Positions 10,979 through 20,520 of a stretch of DNA of 25,261 bases are shown in pieces. The stretch is taken from IMG/VR virus record IMGVR_UViG_3300047548_000439, positions 1 through 25,261 of that record; one strand, given 5' to 3'. Under the pieces are notes generated by a model that was given only the letters and a program-made list of their open reading frames with translations, did no database searches and was not told where the DNA came from. The DNA comes from a virus. Made by a program: the position numbers and the translations under genes. Each line of letters begins with the position of its first letter. The stretch's first letter is position 1.

Positions 10979-10986
10979 TATAAATA
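10979..10986 (+). promoter_or_regulatory. T4-type late promoter before gp20
   Basis: An exact TATAAATA starts four bases after the gp19 stop and 36 bases before the gp20 ATG. Transcription would begin about six bases past the box, inside the hairpin at 10984-11008, so only read-through transcripts from gp18-gp19 would carry that hairpin whole. Confidence 0.8.
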
Positions 10987-11008
10987 TTAGAAACAGTTTT
11001 TCTAATAT
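10984..11008 (+). repeat. Inverted repeat in the gp20 leader
   Basis: ATATTAGAAA (10984-10993) and TTTCTAATAT (10999-11008) form a perfect 10-bp stem with a 5-nt loop in the 39 bases between gp19 and gp20. No T run follows, so it is not an obvious terminator. It overlaps the late promoter and ends six bases before the gp20 start codon, where it could hinder ribosome entry on transcripts read through from gp19. Confidence 0.6.
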
Positions 11009-11014
11009 ATTATA

Positions 11015-12694
11015 ATGCCAAGATTATTTGGATTTAAAATCGAGGAACCGGAAGATAAATCTTCAAAGATTATCTCTCCGGTTCCTCCTAATGATGAGGA
11101 CAAATCAGATTTCTATCTGTCTAGTGGATTTTATGGACAGTATGTTGATATTGAGGGTGTATATAAATCCGAAGGAGATTTAGTTAGAAGATATAGAGAA
11201 ATGGCACTTCATCCAGAGGTTGATAGTGCCATTGAAGATGTTGTAAATGAAGCAATTGTTTCGGATTCCGATGATTCCCCTTTGCAGATTGATTTATCCA
11301 ATTTACCAGCAAGTGATAAGTTAAAGGATAAAATTAGAGAAGAATTTAAATATATCAAAGAAATTATGGACTTCGATAAGAAGTGCCATGAAATTTTTAG
11401 GAATTGGTATATTGATGGAAGAATTTTTTATCATAAAGTAATTGATATAAACAAACCACAAGAAGGGATCAAAGAGATACGATATATTGATCCACTTAAG
11501 ATTAGACACATCAGAAGACTAAAGAAAGATCAAAAAGATTTGAGATCTGCACTAAGTAAGATTAATTCGGATTCAAATGTAATTGATTTTAACCCTCCAG
11601 AGATTGAAGAGTTTTATTTGTATAATCCAAATCAACTCTCTTCAATGACTGCAACCTCTGGTTCTAATTTCAAATCAGAGGCAAGACAAGTAAGAATTTC
11701 ATCAGATTCAATTACTTACATTACTTCTGGATTAGTAGATAGGAATAAACAGACAGTATTATCACATTTGCATAAAGCAATCAAGGCACTCAATCAACTT
11801 AGAATGATTGAGGACTCTTTGGTTATCTACAGATTATCTCGTGCTCCAGAACGTAGAATTTTCTATATTGATGTTGGCAATCTACCAAAAATTAAGGCAG
11901 AACAATATCTTCGTGATGTGATGAATCGTTATCGCAACAAGTTGGTATACGATGCAAATACTGGTGAGATTCGTGATGATCGCAAGTATATGGCAATGCT
12001 TGAAGATTTCTGGTTGCCACGTAGAGAAGGCGGAAGAGGAACAGAAATCACTACACTTCCTGGTGGTCAGAATCTTGGAGAACTTGCAGACATTGAGTAT
12101 TTCCAAAAGAAACTTTATCGTTCTTTGAACGTACCAGAAACTAGATTAAATTCAAGTAGTGGATTCAGTCTAGGTCGTTCTTCTGAAATTCTTAGAGATG
12201 AAATTAAATTTACTAAGTTTGTTGGAAGATTAAGAAAGAGATTCTCAAATCTTTTCAATGATATGTTAAAAACTCAACTTATCTTGAAGAATATTGTATC
12301 CGTAGAAGATTGGGAGACTCTTTCGGATCATATTCAATATGATTATTTGTATGATAATCATTTCTCAGAACTAAAAGATACAGAACTATTAAATGATAAA
12401 CTTGCTGCTGCAGCAGCAATGGAACCATATATTGGTAAGTATTTTTCATTAGAATATGTTCGTTCCAAGATTCTGAAGCAGAATGATGGTGAGATCAAGG
12501 AAATTGACAAGCAAATTCAGAAAGAAATTAAAGCAGGATTAATTGTTGATCCTAAACTTGTTGTTTCACAACAACAAGCATCAATGCAACCAATGGATCA
12601 AGAAATGGATATGGGGCAGGAACAACCACCAGAACAACAATCTGGTGCTGCAATGGGAGAACCAGTAATGGAACCCCAAGCAGGGGAAATATAA
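11015..12694 (+). CDS. 20: Portal vertex protein gp20
   Basis: The 559-aa protein is the dodecameric portal through which DNA is packaged and ejected. Family hallmarks include YREMALHPEVDSAIEDVVNE (about 62-81), FRNWYIDGRIFYHKVID, KEIRYIDPLKIRHIRRL, the LSRAPERRIFYIDVGNLPKI segment, EDFWLPRREGGRGTEITTLP and SSGFSLGRSSEILRDEIKF. T4 gp20 has 524 residues; the extra length is mainly a Gln/Met/Pro-rich C-terminal tail (about 522-559). It has its own late promoter (10979-10986) but no obvious Shine-Dalgarno sequence. A long hairpin lies inside codons 10-25. A late promoter for gp67 overlaps its stop codon. Confidence 0.97.
   Translation: MPRLFGFKIEEPEDKSSKIISPVPPNDEDKSDFYLSSGFYGQYVDIEGVYKSEGDLVRRYREMALHPEVDSAIEDVVNEAIVSDSDDSPLQIDLSNLPASDKLKDKIREEFKYIKEIMDFDKKCHEIFRNWYIDGRIFYHKVIDINKPQEGIKEIRYIDPLKIRHIRRLKKDQKDLRSALSKINSDSNVIDFNPPEIEEFYLYNPNQLSSMTATSGSNFKSEARQVRISSDSITYITSGLVDRNKQTVLSHLHKAIKALNQLRMIEDSLVIYRLSRAPERRIFYIDVGNLPKIKAEQYLRDVMNRYRNKLVYDANTGEIRDDRKYMAMLEDFWLPRREGGRGTEITTLPGGQNLGELADIEYFQKKLYRSLNVPETRLNSSSGFSLGRSSEILRDEIKFTKFVGRLRKRFSNLFNDMLKTQLILKNIVSVEDWETLSDHIQYDYLYDNHFSELKDTELLNDKLAAAAAMEPYIGKYFSLEYVRSKILKQNDGEIKEIDKQIQKEIKAGLIVDPKLVVSQQQASMQPMDQEMDMGQEQPPEQQSGAAMGEPVMEPQAGEI
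11042..11087 (+). repeat. Long near-perfect hairpin inside the start of gp20
   Basis: GAGGAACCGGA (11042-11052) pairs exactly with TCCGGTTCCTC (11077-11087). Inside this, AGATAA (11053-11058) pairs with TTATCT (11070-11075), and TCTT (11060-11063) with AAGA (11066-11069). Only one A (11059) and one C (11076) are bulged, giving about 20 paired bases. It begins 27 bases after the start of the ATG. There is no T tract behind it, so it is not a terminator; a translational or RNA-processing control element is the leading guess. Confidence 0.75.
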
Positions 12695-12898: not shown

Positions 12899-13213
12899 AT
12901 GAAATCATACAGACAATTTATTTCAGAATCAGTTAATATTGCTGGTGATTTCAACGGAAATCTATACATCAACGGTTCTGAAAGTTCATCAGAACCAGTT
13001 GGTGAATCATTTCTTGCAGATGTAGTTTGGGAAGGAAAACTATATCGTATGGAAGTAGAAGGAAGAATGTTAGATAAGAATAAACTCACAGAACAATTGC
13101 AGGGAGAATACCCAGGAGCAATCGTTCATAACGTTTATCCAATCACAGAAAATTCTTTAAAAGTAAGAAAAGCACAAAGATATCAACCAGAAAGACTAAC
13201 TTGGACTGACTGA
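12899..13213 (+). CDS. 68: Prohead core protein, gp68-like, with capsid-targeting-like N-terminus
   Basis: The 104-aa protein starts MKSYRQFISESVNIAG; residues 1-10 resemble the T4 capsid-targeting peptide, and ISE before Ser11 fits the gp21 cleavage rule. A beta-alpha body follows (FLADVVWEGKLYRMEVEGRM, KLTEQLQGEYPGAIVHNVYP) and a basic tail with RKAQRYQPERLTW. Such proteins sit between gp67 and gp21 in cyanophages and are usually named gp68, although resemblance to T4 gp68 is weak. It probably belongs to the prohead core. It begins 9 bases after gp67 and ends one base before the next gene. A perfect 8-bp inverted repeat lies within it at 12974-12996. Confidence 0.65.
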   Translation: MKSYRQFISESVNIAGDFNGNLYINGSESSSEPVGESFLADVVWEGKLYRMEVEGRMLDKNKLTEQLQGEYPGAIVHNVYPITENSLKVRKAQRYQPERLTWTD

Positions 13214-13986: not shown

Positions 13987-14256
13987 ATGCAAAGAACAAA
14001 ACTAATCACTACTGAGATTGCAATGCCAACTACTGCTGGCACTGCTTCCAGTATTAGTGAAGCAACTTGTGTGAGATTATATAACGGTTCTGGAGCAGCA
14101 GCAACTGTAAGTATTTCTACTGCAGTGGGTGCAGCAACTACATTATCATTTACTATGCCAACTGGCACAGTTGAATTCTTACAAAAACTCCCAACCGATG
14201 TGATTTTTGCATCAGCAAATACAGTAAAAGTAGCAAAAGTAGGATTTACCAACTAA
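13987..14256 (+). CDS. Small beta-rich putative structural protein (89 aa)
   Basis: The 89-aa product is rich in Ala, Thr, Ser and Val and predicted to be all beta: TCVRLYNGSGAAATVSIST, then a strand pair TLSFTMPTGTVEFLQKLPTD, then ANTVKVAKVGFTN. A pattern of VRLYN, an alternating strand and a P-T-D-x-I/L-x-A turn is shared by many small proteins near capsid genes in marine phages. I know no function for them. It lies 37 bases after the 244-aa protein and 5 bases before gp21, so it is probably a late virion gene. A head-decoration role is a guess. Confidence 0.68.
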   Translation: MQRTKLITTEIAMPTTAGTASSISEATCVRLYNGSGAAATVSISTAVGAATTLSFTMPTGTVEFLQKLPTDVIFASANTVKVAKVGFTN

Positions 14257-18663: not shown

Positions 18664-20119
18664 TATAATTATCCAAAAAAAGAACGAAATATATTTAAAA
18701 GTTGATGCTGATCCGCATATTCATCAGGAATTGTCGGAGTATTTTACTTTTGAAGTTCCTGGTGCAAAATTTATGCCTCAGTATAGAAGTAAGTATTGGG
18801 ATGGAAAAATAAGATTATACAGTACCCATACTGGTGAAATATATGTTGGTCTTTTGGATAAAATTGTGTCTTGGGCAAAAAGATATGAATATTCAGTAGA
18901 ATTTAAAGATAATAAATTTTATGGAACTCCTTTAGAAGAAAACGAAATGATTTCTTATGAAGGAGTAAAGGAATATATGACAAGAATATCAAGTCATAAA
19001 CCAAGAGATTATCAAGTTAATGCTGTTTATGATGCTCTTAGATATAATAGAAAACTTTTAATTTCTCCAACAGCATCTGGAAAATCATTAATGATTTATT
19101 CCGTTGTTAGATACTTTTGCGATAAAAATCATAAAATTTTATTAGTTGTTCCTACTACATCTCTAGTGGAACAAATGTATAAAGACTTTTTAGATTATGG
19201 ATGGGATTCTGAATCATATTGCCATAAAATTTATTCTGGAAAAGAAAAGAACACTAATAAAAGTGTGGTAATTACTACTTGGCAGTCAATATATAATTTG
19301 CCAAGGTCATTTTTTGATTCTTTTGATGTTGTAATTGGTGATGAAGCTCATTTATTTAAATCAAAATCTTTAGTTTCTATTATGACAAAACTAGATAATG
19401 CAAAATATAGATTTGGATTTACTGGAACCTTAGATGGTTCTCAAACACATAAATGGGTTCTTGAGGGATTGTTTGGTCCTTCGTATAAGGTAACCCAAAC
19501 AAAAGAACTAATAGAAAAAGGACATTTATCAAAACTTCAAATTAAAATTTTATTACTAAAACATAGTCCACATAAATTTAATGAATTTGAAGAAGAAATA
19601 CAATATCTAATAGGTCATGAAAAAAGAAACAATTTTATAAAAAATCTTGTTCTTGATTTGAAAGGAAATAGCTTAGTGTTATTCAATAGGGTTGAGGCTC
19701 ATGGACTACCTTTATATGAACTTATAAATAATTCTGCATCAAAGGAAAGAAAAATATTTTTTGTTCATGGTGGAGTTGACACAGAAGAAAGAGAACTGGT
19801 TAGAGAAATTACTGAAAGAGAAGATAACGCAATTATTGTTGCTTCTTACGGAACATTTTCTACAGGAATTAACATTAGAAATTTGCATAATGTTATCTTT
19901 GCTTCACCAAGCAAATCAAGAGTCAGAAATCTTCAATCAATTGGAAGAGTTTTAAGAAAAGGAAATAACAAAACTCAAGCAATTCTTTATGATATTGCAG
20001 ATGATATTACTTATAACTCTAAAAAAAATTATACATTAAATCATTTAATTGAAAGAATTAAAATTTATAATGAAGAAGATTTTAACTATGAAATAATTAA
20101 AATCAATTTTAAAAACTAA
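18656..20119 (+). CDS. uvsW: RNA-DNA and branched-DNA helicase UvsW
   Basis: The 487-aa protein is a superfamily 2 helicase close to T4 UvsW (about 500 aa). It has an N-terminal DNA-binding domain (LSEYFTFEVPGAKFMPQYRS, KYWDGKIRLY), then PRDYQ (116-120), Walker A SPTASGKS (137-144), DEAH (230-233), the motif FTGTL (256-260) and motif VI QSIGRVLRKG (428-437). UvsW unwinds R-loops and Holliday junctions and so moves the phage from origin-driven to recombination-driven replication. It overlaps uvsY by 8 bases and its stop overlaps the next start as TAATG. An internal TATAAATA (19723-19730) is probably fortuitous. Confidence 0.95.
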   Translation: MTDIIIQKKNEIYLKVDADPHIHQELSEYFTFEVPGAKFMPQYRSKYWDGKIRLYSTHTGEIYVGLLDKIVSWAKRYEYSVEFKDNKFYGTPLEENEMISYEGVKEYMTRISSHKPRDYQVNAVYDALRYNRKLLISPTASGKSLMIYSVVRYFCDKNHKILLVVPTTSLVEQMYKDFLDYGWDSESYCHKIYSGKEKNTNKSVVITTWQSIYNLPRSFFDSFDVVIGDEAHLFKSKSLVSIMTKLDNAKYRFGFTGTLDGSQTHKWVLEGLFGPSYKVTQTKELIEKGHLSKLQIKILLLKHSPHKFNEFEEEIQYLIGHEKRNNFIKNLVLDLKGNSLVLFNRVEAHGLPLYELINNSASKERKIFFVHGGVDTEERELVREITEREDNAIIVASYGTFSTGINIRNLHNVIFASPSKSRVRNLQSIGRVLRKGNNKTQAILYDIADDITYNSKKNYTLNHLIERIKIYNEEDFNYEIIKINFKN

Positions 20120-20520
20120 TGTCTGAAGAATTTTATGCAATTATTAAATTAATATCTTCCGAAGAGATATTTTCTAAAGTATGTTCCTGTGACGAAGAAG
20201 ATAGAACTATCTTGATACTTGAGGATCCTGTTATAATTGAAACAGTAACCCTTCAAAAGTATTCTGTTGAAGGATATAAAATAAATCCTTGGATTAAATT
20301 TACTGATGAGACTACTTTTTTACTTGATATGGAAAAAGTTATAACTATCTCTGAAGTACGTGATAAAGATATAATTTCAATATATGAAAAGTATATAAAA
20401 TCAAAAATTAAAAAAAAGAATAAAAAAGATGTATCTCCAAATATGGGATACATCTCATCAATTAGTGAAGCAAGAATCTTATTAGAAAAACTTTATAAAT
20501 CAGAAGATATTAAAGACTAG
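20119..20520 (+). CDS. Conserved small protein between uvsW and gp55
   Basis: The 133-aa protein has an N-terminal beta-rich part (FYAIIKLISSEEIFSKVCSC, TILILEDPVIIETVTL, GYKINPWIKFTDETTFLLD) with a strand pattern resembling small LSm-like barrels, then a Lys-rich linker (about 93-104) and a helical end. A similar protein occupies this place in other T4-like cyanophages as far as I recall, always without a known role. Its ATG overlaps the uvsW stop by one base. Because LSm-like proteins bind RNA, an RNA-linked role is conceivable but unproven. A minus-strand terminator-like hairpin lies in its 3' half (20427-20455). Confidence 0.7.
   Translation: MSEEFYAIIKLISSEEIFSKVCSCDEEDRTILILEDPVIIETVTLQKYSVEGYKINPWIKFTDETTFLLDMEKVITISEVRDKDIISIYEKYIKSKIKKKNKKDVSPNMGYISSISEARILLEKLYKSEDIKD
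20427..20455 (-). terminator. Terminator-like hairpin on the antisense strand
   Basis: AGATGTATC (20427-20435) and GATACATCT (20447-20455) form a perfect 9-bp stem with an 11-nt loop. Read on the minus strand it leads straight into a T-rich tail interrupted by A and C (20427-20409). On the plus strand no T run follows. The stem is AT-rich, and no leftward gene lies to its right in this window, so this is tentative. Confidence 0.35.

Follow-up and report, generated by a model that had tools for sequence, protein, structure and literature searches.

An mRNA hairpin selected for shape rather than sequence just inside the portal gene gp20 of marine T4-like cyanophages and their relatives

Results

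The gp20 locus carries a strong hairpin behind an open start region

The window, by which we mean the whole 25,261-nucleotide stretch of viral DNA analysed here, contains the portal gene gp20, preceded by a T4-type late promoter (Table 1). The core of this promoter, TAAATA, precedes gp20 in 112 of 112 relatives at a median of 28 nt from the ATG, and NATAAATA is a described cyanophage late promoter, known from S-PM2 (PMC2984593). The late leader that the inferred transcript start would give is unstructured (z 0.12), and the weak structure at 10993-11041 contrasts with the hairpin that directly follows it.

Table 1. Features around the start of gp20 in the window
Feature	Position	Strand	Remarks
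T4-type late promoter TATAAATA	10979-10986	+	28 nt 5' of the ATG
Expected late leader with the first 27 nt of gp20	10993-11041	+	Weakly structured; no Shine-Dalgarno (SD) sequence
gp20 portal ORF	11015-12694	+	Pfam Portal_T4, E 6e-187, residues 55-504
gp20 hairpin, 5' arm	11042-11062	+	Codons 10-16; A11059 bulged
gp20 hairpin, outer stem	11042-11052/11077-11087	+	11 bp, unbroken
gp20 hairpin, inner 5'-arm pairs	11053-11058 and 11060-11062	+	9 inner pairs
gp20 hairpin, loop UCAA	11063-11066	+	From the fold
gp20 hairpin, 3' arm	11067-11087	+	Codons 18-25, for ..IISPVPP; C11076 bulged

The original prediction placed a near-perfect 46-nt pairing with an unbroken 11-bp outer stem at 11042-11087, beginning 27 nt after the start of the gp20 AUG. 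Folding of this plus-strand segment bore this out, yielding 20 bp at -26.0 kcal/mol with the outer stem intact and an offset of exactly 27 nt from the A of the ATG at 11015. The hairpin had also been described as far stronger than others in the window, and it does have the lowest 46-nt folding energy on either strand of the entire 25 kb; the next strongest 46-nt fold lies at 14008 on the minus strand. An intrinsic terminator is ruled out, as anticipated, since the sequence 3' of 11087, CTAATGATGAGG, has no T run on the plus strand and the hairpin is absent from the terminator scan. An Rfam search returned no family at the gathering score, the weak E-value matches being due to chance, and a tRNA search found none.

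Codon-shuffled folding had been named in advance as a check, and its outcome favours structure: when the segment was recoded synonymously using gp20 codon usage, none of 20,000 versions folded as strongly as the native hairpin, the recoded versions averaging -5.5 ± 3.2 (s.d.) kcal/mol. Against dinucleotide shuffles, the 151-nt context of the hairpin yields a z of -3.7. Because the Portal_T4 match begins only at residue 55, the hairpin encodes a variable N-terminal arm outside the conserved domain; residues 1-73 of T4 gp20 are disordered (PMC4493910), which explains how this stretch can carry an RNA element.

Two further features of the leader were seen. A leader hairpin (TATAAATATTAGAAA / TTTTCTAATATATTATA, window 10979-11014), whose 5' strand contains the late promoter, is weak in the window and stronger in some relatives (L077, ACTGGGAATGGCCCAGT; L088); it would form in read-through mRNA, while late mRNA would be without much of it, and just 21% of 112 gp20 leaders have a z below -2. 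In addition, the relative L001 (L001:2950-3020) shares 99% identity with the window across the N-terminal part of gp20, yet neither its leader, which is entirely different, nor its first codons match; this suggests a recombination breakpoint at the gp20 start.

The hairpin recurs across Kyanoviridae with different letters

Five scans of viral contigs, each using another gp20 query and including the window's own, were combined with 20 annotated phages (out-group references included) to give 420 gp20 starts. Removal of near-duplicates over codons 8-35 left 116 representatives, nearly all of them Kyanoviridae, which we sorted into clades A (window type), B (S-RIM2 type), C (ACG-2014i type), D (P-SSM2 type) and E (Methylophilales phage Melnitz type). 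By eye, nearly all representatives have a hairpin in a similar place made of different letters, as in the arms GGGAGAAGCAGUC/GAUUGUUUCUCCC of L003, GGAGAACGAUAGAU/AUCUAUCGUUUCUCC of L008 and GAAGAAGGUCCC/GGGACCUUCUU of S-RIM8.

For each representative, the strongest 50-nt fold with a start anywhere from +20 to +70 (segment +20 to +120) was compared with that of synonymous shuffles. The native gp20 fold was significant at p<=0.05 in 107 of the 116 and at p<=0.01 in 91; two of the nine genes without a significant hairpin belong to out-group phages, and these nine indicate that the hairpin is not strictly essential. By start of the 50-nt window, the mean z moves from +0.13 at 0 to -2.8 at +30, and from +90 onwards it stays near -0.5 except for another rise between +170 and +180. 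Dinucleotide shuffles from -1.9 to +2 kb in 56 representatives likewise identified +25 as the most structured place (z -3.1), with the -25 and 0 windows unstructured.

Stems are about 18-20 pairs long in most clades. Their register is less constant: in clade D the C-rich SPVP codons pair downstream instead of upstream, shifting the stem to +54 from the usual position near +30, that is, by 20-25 nt, and within clade A the register slides between subclades. No loop or bulge is conserved across clades.

Other folds are found nearby. In many relatives the gp20 hairpin is immediately followed by another perfect one, in the NEDSSD codons (for example AAGUCCGAUGA/UCAUCGGACUU in Sf-FS3, and at about +72 to +104 of gp20 in L085, L008 and L077). 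Further into the gene, the +175 window ranks second in structure around gp20 when the relatives are taken together (z -2.1), and the window itself has a 9-bp hairpin, AATGGCACT/AGTGCCATT, at 11200-11233 in the codons of the conserved MALHPEVDSAI motif.

The two arms change together, and the pairing favours RNA over DNA

Compensating changes in the arms of relatives, the other check proposed at the outset, were found across lineages. Since the sliding register of clade A means that no single clade-wide structure can be written, we used an arm swap, in which each hairpin is given the 3' arm of another member of its clade. Native hairpins average -21.8 kcal/mol against -15.3 for swapped ones (p 2e-18), a mean cost of about 6.5 kcal/mol that rises to about 10.6 in the window's own clade A (-19.9 native, -9.3 swapped).

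Clade E provided a gap-free alignment of 43 sequences, in which eight pairs have changed on both sides, with 38 such cells against 13 expected. The covariation score of 0.267, against 0.154 for the shuffles, was reached in 0 of 500 of them; since shuffling keeps relatedness, such counts are not strict probabilities. Shifting the partner by 1-3 columns makes the score collapse. In L413 and L415 a T-A pair has become A-T at the price of amino-acid changes in both arms. Clade D agrees, with 91.5% of cells paired and just two double-changed pairs, a clade that varies so little that the counts alone are weak, and the near-identical relative L002 differs from the window by one compensated pair, T11056-A11072 to C-G.

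An inverted repeat of this kind exists in the DNA too, and T4-type phages have hairpin-cutting enzymes, so that a palindrome near the portal gene could in principle serve as a replication, recombination or packaging site. Selection on the RNA is favoured by two asymmetries. Measured against codon shuffles, folding is stronger for the mRNA strand than for the complementary one (z -4.74 versus -3.88; 85 of 116 genes, p 3e-8), and with strand-neutral stem calling G-U cells outnumber A-C cells by 172 to 120. The position is moreover set relative to where the reading frame begins, and the arms have no DNA motif in common. We therefore disfavour a DNA-level site and regard it as very improbable.

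The signal is specific to gp20

We ran the same fold test on orthologues of 16 genes at all loci. gp20 stands out with a mean z of -4.07 and 92% of genes below -2, the next gene reaching 46%; the runners-up by mean z are gp15 (-1.76), uvsW (-1.68), gp19 (-1.61) and gp14 (-1.55), and gp23, gp18, gp55 and gp47 lie between -0.3 and -0.8. Strong structure inside the start is thus not a general property of all genes, the others averaging a z of about -0.8 at +30. Nor is it a rule for low-copy structural genes: three genomes had hinted at one, but in the larger set the low-copy genes gp13 and gp3 have no such structure and the 138-copy gp19 has some, so dosage is not a general rule.

Beyond Kyanoviridae the gp20 signal is mostly absent from other T4-like phages. 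No hairpin was found in gp20 of RB49, phiR1-RT, Thanatos-1, 44RR, an Acinetobacter phage, Vibrio K476 or Rhizobium LG08; a moderate fold was seen in the T4 relative phage 132 and in Rhizobium phage RHph_I1_9.

Individual strong hairpins do occur just inside other genes, namely gp17 of ACG-2014i (L424:13669, z -6.8) and gp15 of S-SSM7 (L423:12017, z -4.3), and in the window the small genes at 13987-14256 and 12899-13213, between gp20 and gp21, have strong folds inside their starts (z -2.8 and -3.0).

These results also bear on the idea that the hairpin is a functionless by-product, either of linker codons or a peptide that happen to be palindromic or of template switching that made the repeats. 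The linker is indeed low in complexity, charged and variable. Yet codon shuffles and recodings that keep the peptide lose the fold, arm swaps and the clade E covariation show the arms changing together, the position is similar in nearly all relatives, and template switching would not target one gene. Taken together, this leaves the by-product reading scarcely credible.

Discussion

A selected mRNA shape

We are highly confident that the gp20 hairpin is a selected mRNA secondary structure in Kyanoviridae, the marine T4-like cyanophages and their relatives. It is a coding-region structure that beats synonymous recodings and shows compensatory changes; what is selected in gp20 is the shape of the mRNA, the exact sequence being free and the start region before the stem open. 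The arms may drift provided that their complementarity stays, and the position is kept just inside the ORF. The original prediction of an RNA structure in the portal mRNA is thus strongly supported, because compensating changes, the excess over codon shuffles, the preference for the mRNA strand and the specificity to gp20 all point the same way. Motif, loop and exact register all vary, and the sequence is free even within one clade, so selection most likely acts on how stable the stem is mechanically and not on a particular binding motif.

A stem of this kind could also be the target of a reader that represses or inactivates the gp20 message. The reader might be a protein or nuclease specific for double strands, such as host RNase III, or a phage protein that recognises shape, which may be free gp20, in autoregulation, or a phage Sm-like protein. 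Long, sequence-independent stems are what a double-strand reader needs, and mRNA hairpins serve as protein operators in T4-type phages, that of gp43 being one instance (PMC3014915). The variable loops and bulges and the displaced register of clade D speak against such a site, as does the fact that bulges and mismatches are common and that two complete helical turns without interruption are more than most stems reach. The original prediction also raised a cleavage site, and no published cleavage was found. An RNase III site takes about two helical turns of duplex, and the window's stem has 20 bp with two bulged bases. We consider this reading unlikely. The window does have a gene with an Sm_like domain at 20119-20520 (PF16243, E 8e-10), a possible phage RNA-binding protein; the gene at the corresponding position in S-SSM7 carries the annotation methylamine utilization.

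A possible brake on early elongation

Head assembly is nucleated by the portal, which is present in 12 copies, and the original prediction saw in the hairpin a plausible means of slowing portal translation. This is compatible with the data and is the leading mechanism, but low copy number alone is an insufficient explanation, given that gp13 and gp3 have no hairpin. We tentatively propose, as the simplest reading, that the hairpin slows early elongation and in this way tunes the synthesis of the portal, and we give this brake somewhat less than an even chance. An initiating ribosome does not reach as far as the stem with its footprint, so a direct block of initiation would not be expected and the stem would act on ribosomes in the first codons. 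Each ribosome would have to melt the stem within its first 5-15 codons or so, and one held there would cover the start codon or queue near it. Held ribosomes would lower and even out the rate of portal synthesis, without wasted long partial chains, and would thereby help to match portal supply to that of gp23 and gp22. The disordered N-terminal arm of gp20 would accommodate the residue changes that maintaining the stem requires.

Whether SD motifs are present in the leader is informative here. Most gp20 leaders have no SD-like motif, as is true of most other genes of the same phages; by a stricter test none of the representatives in clades A, C and D has one and all in clade E do. The hairpin is kept in each of these clades, with or without an SD, which favours a role after initiation. 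Against the brake, elongating ribosomes can unwind stems, and the offset of clade D differs from that of the rest.

A further point against it comes from the start region, which opens slightly more easily in native sequences than in codon shuffles (7.8 versus 8.6 kcal/mol for -15 to +19; easier in 89 of 113) and so fits the opposite, stimulating role. The main rival to the brake builds on this: the hairpin would act as an insulator or beacon that locks up pairing partners, leaving the start open and raising initiation on an often SD-less leader. In its favour, the unstructured start region adjoins the hairpin, SD-like motifs are missing from most gp20 leaders, and lack of local structure suffices for SD-less initiation (PMC3121790). 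However, accessibility improves by only about 0.8 kcal/mol, for which the stem is far stronger than required, and most other SD-less genes of these phages are without such a hairpin. The SDs of clade E, where the hairpin is still kept, weaken an SD-less beacon as the sole cause. We assign this rival a low probability.

Returning to the early-elongation brake, a far-reaching form of it would be a family-wide portal governor, read by stem stability alone and housed in the disordered N-terminal arm, that sets the number of portals and hence of heads; this we regard as rather less likely than not.

Implications and comparison with known systems

gp20 has long been used as a marker gene in cyanomyovirus surveys, and the hairpin in it clearly exemplifies selection that acts on the shape of an mRNA, not on its sequence, inside an essential structural gene of a globally abundant virus family. 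The old question of how one portal ring is balanced against hundreds of capsid subunits becomes testable with synonymous mutations alone, and the N-terminal portal residues of these phages may reflect an RNA constraint rather than protein function. In the open-access literature that we searched, we found no earlier description of the gp20 element.

Several known elements resemble the gp20 hairpin in part. The alphavirus downstream hairpin (DLP), a eukaryotic element about 27 nt after the AUG that helps initiation without eIF2, is likewise a stable hairpin at a similar offset inside an ORF, but there is no homology between the two, the offset of clade D differs and the function in gp20 is putative. 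The translational ramp, an early-elongation slowdown usually ascribed to rare codons or weak average structure, shares a slow region just past the start codon that spaces ribosomes, as proposed for gp20, where by contrast there is one conserved stem in one gene. Among conserved structured RNAs of T4-like cyanophages, manA, wcaG and PhotoRC-II (PMC2864571) sit in potential 5' UTRs of metabolic or photosynthesis genes, and none lies in gp20.

Further parallels are the T4 late-gene hairpins of e, soc, 49, I-TevI and 25, which act at the SD or AUG (PMC3014915). Like those of e, soc, 49 and I-TevI, the gp20 element is an mRNA hairpin that acts in cis where a late gene begins, near a TATAAATA promoter. 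Hairpins of the e/soc type pair the SD and/or the AUG, whereas the gp20 stem starts at +27, wholly inside the coding sequence, and leaves -25 to +20 unstructured; in gene e the late promoter lies in the 5'-strand coding region, a likeness to the leader hairpin at 10979-11014, while the promoter at 10979-10986 is far upstream of the gp20 hairpin. With SD and AUG unpaired and the promoter outside the helix, the gp20 hairpin is not an SD-sequestering element of this type. The conserved stem of T4 gene 25 (PMC3014915) is, like that of gp20, kept in many relatives at a structural gene, but it occupies the translation initiation region in T-even phages, and the gp20 hairpin sits past the start codon and belongs to a different gene in a different phage family.
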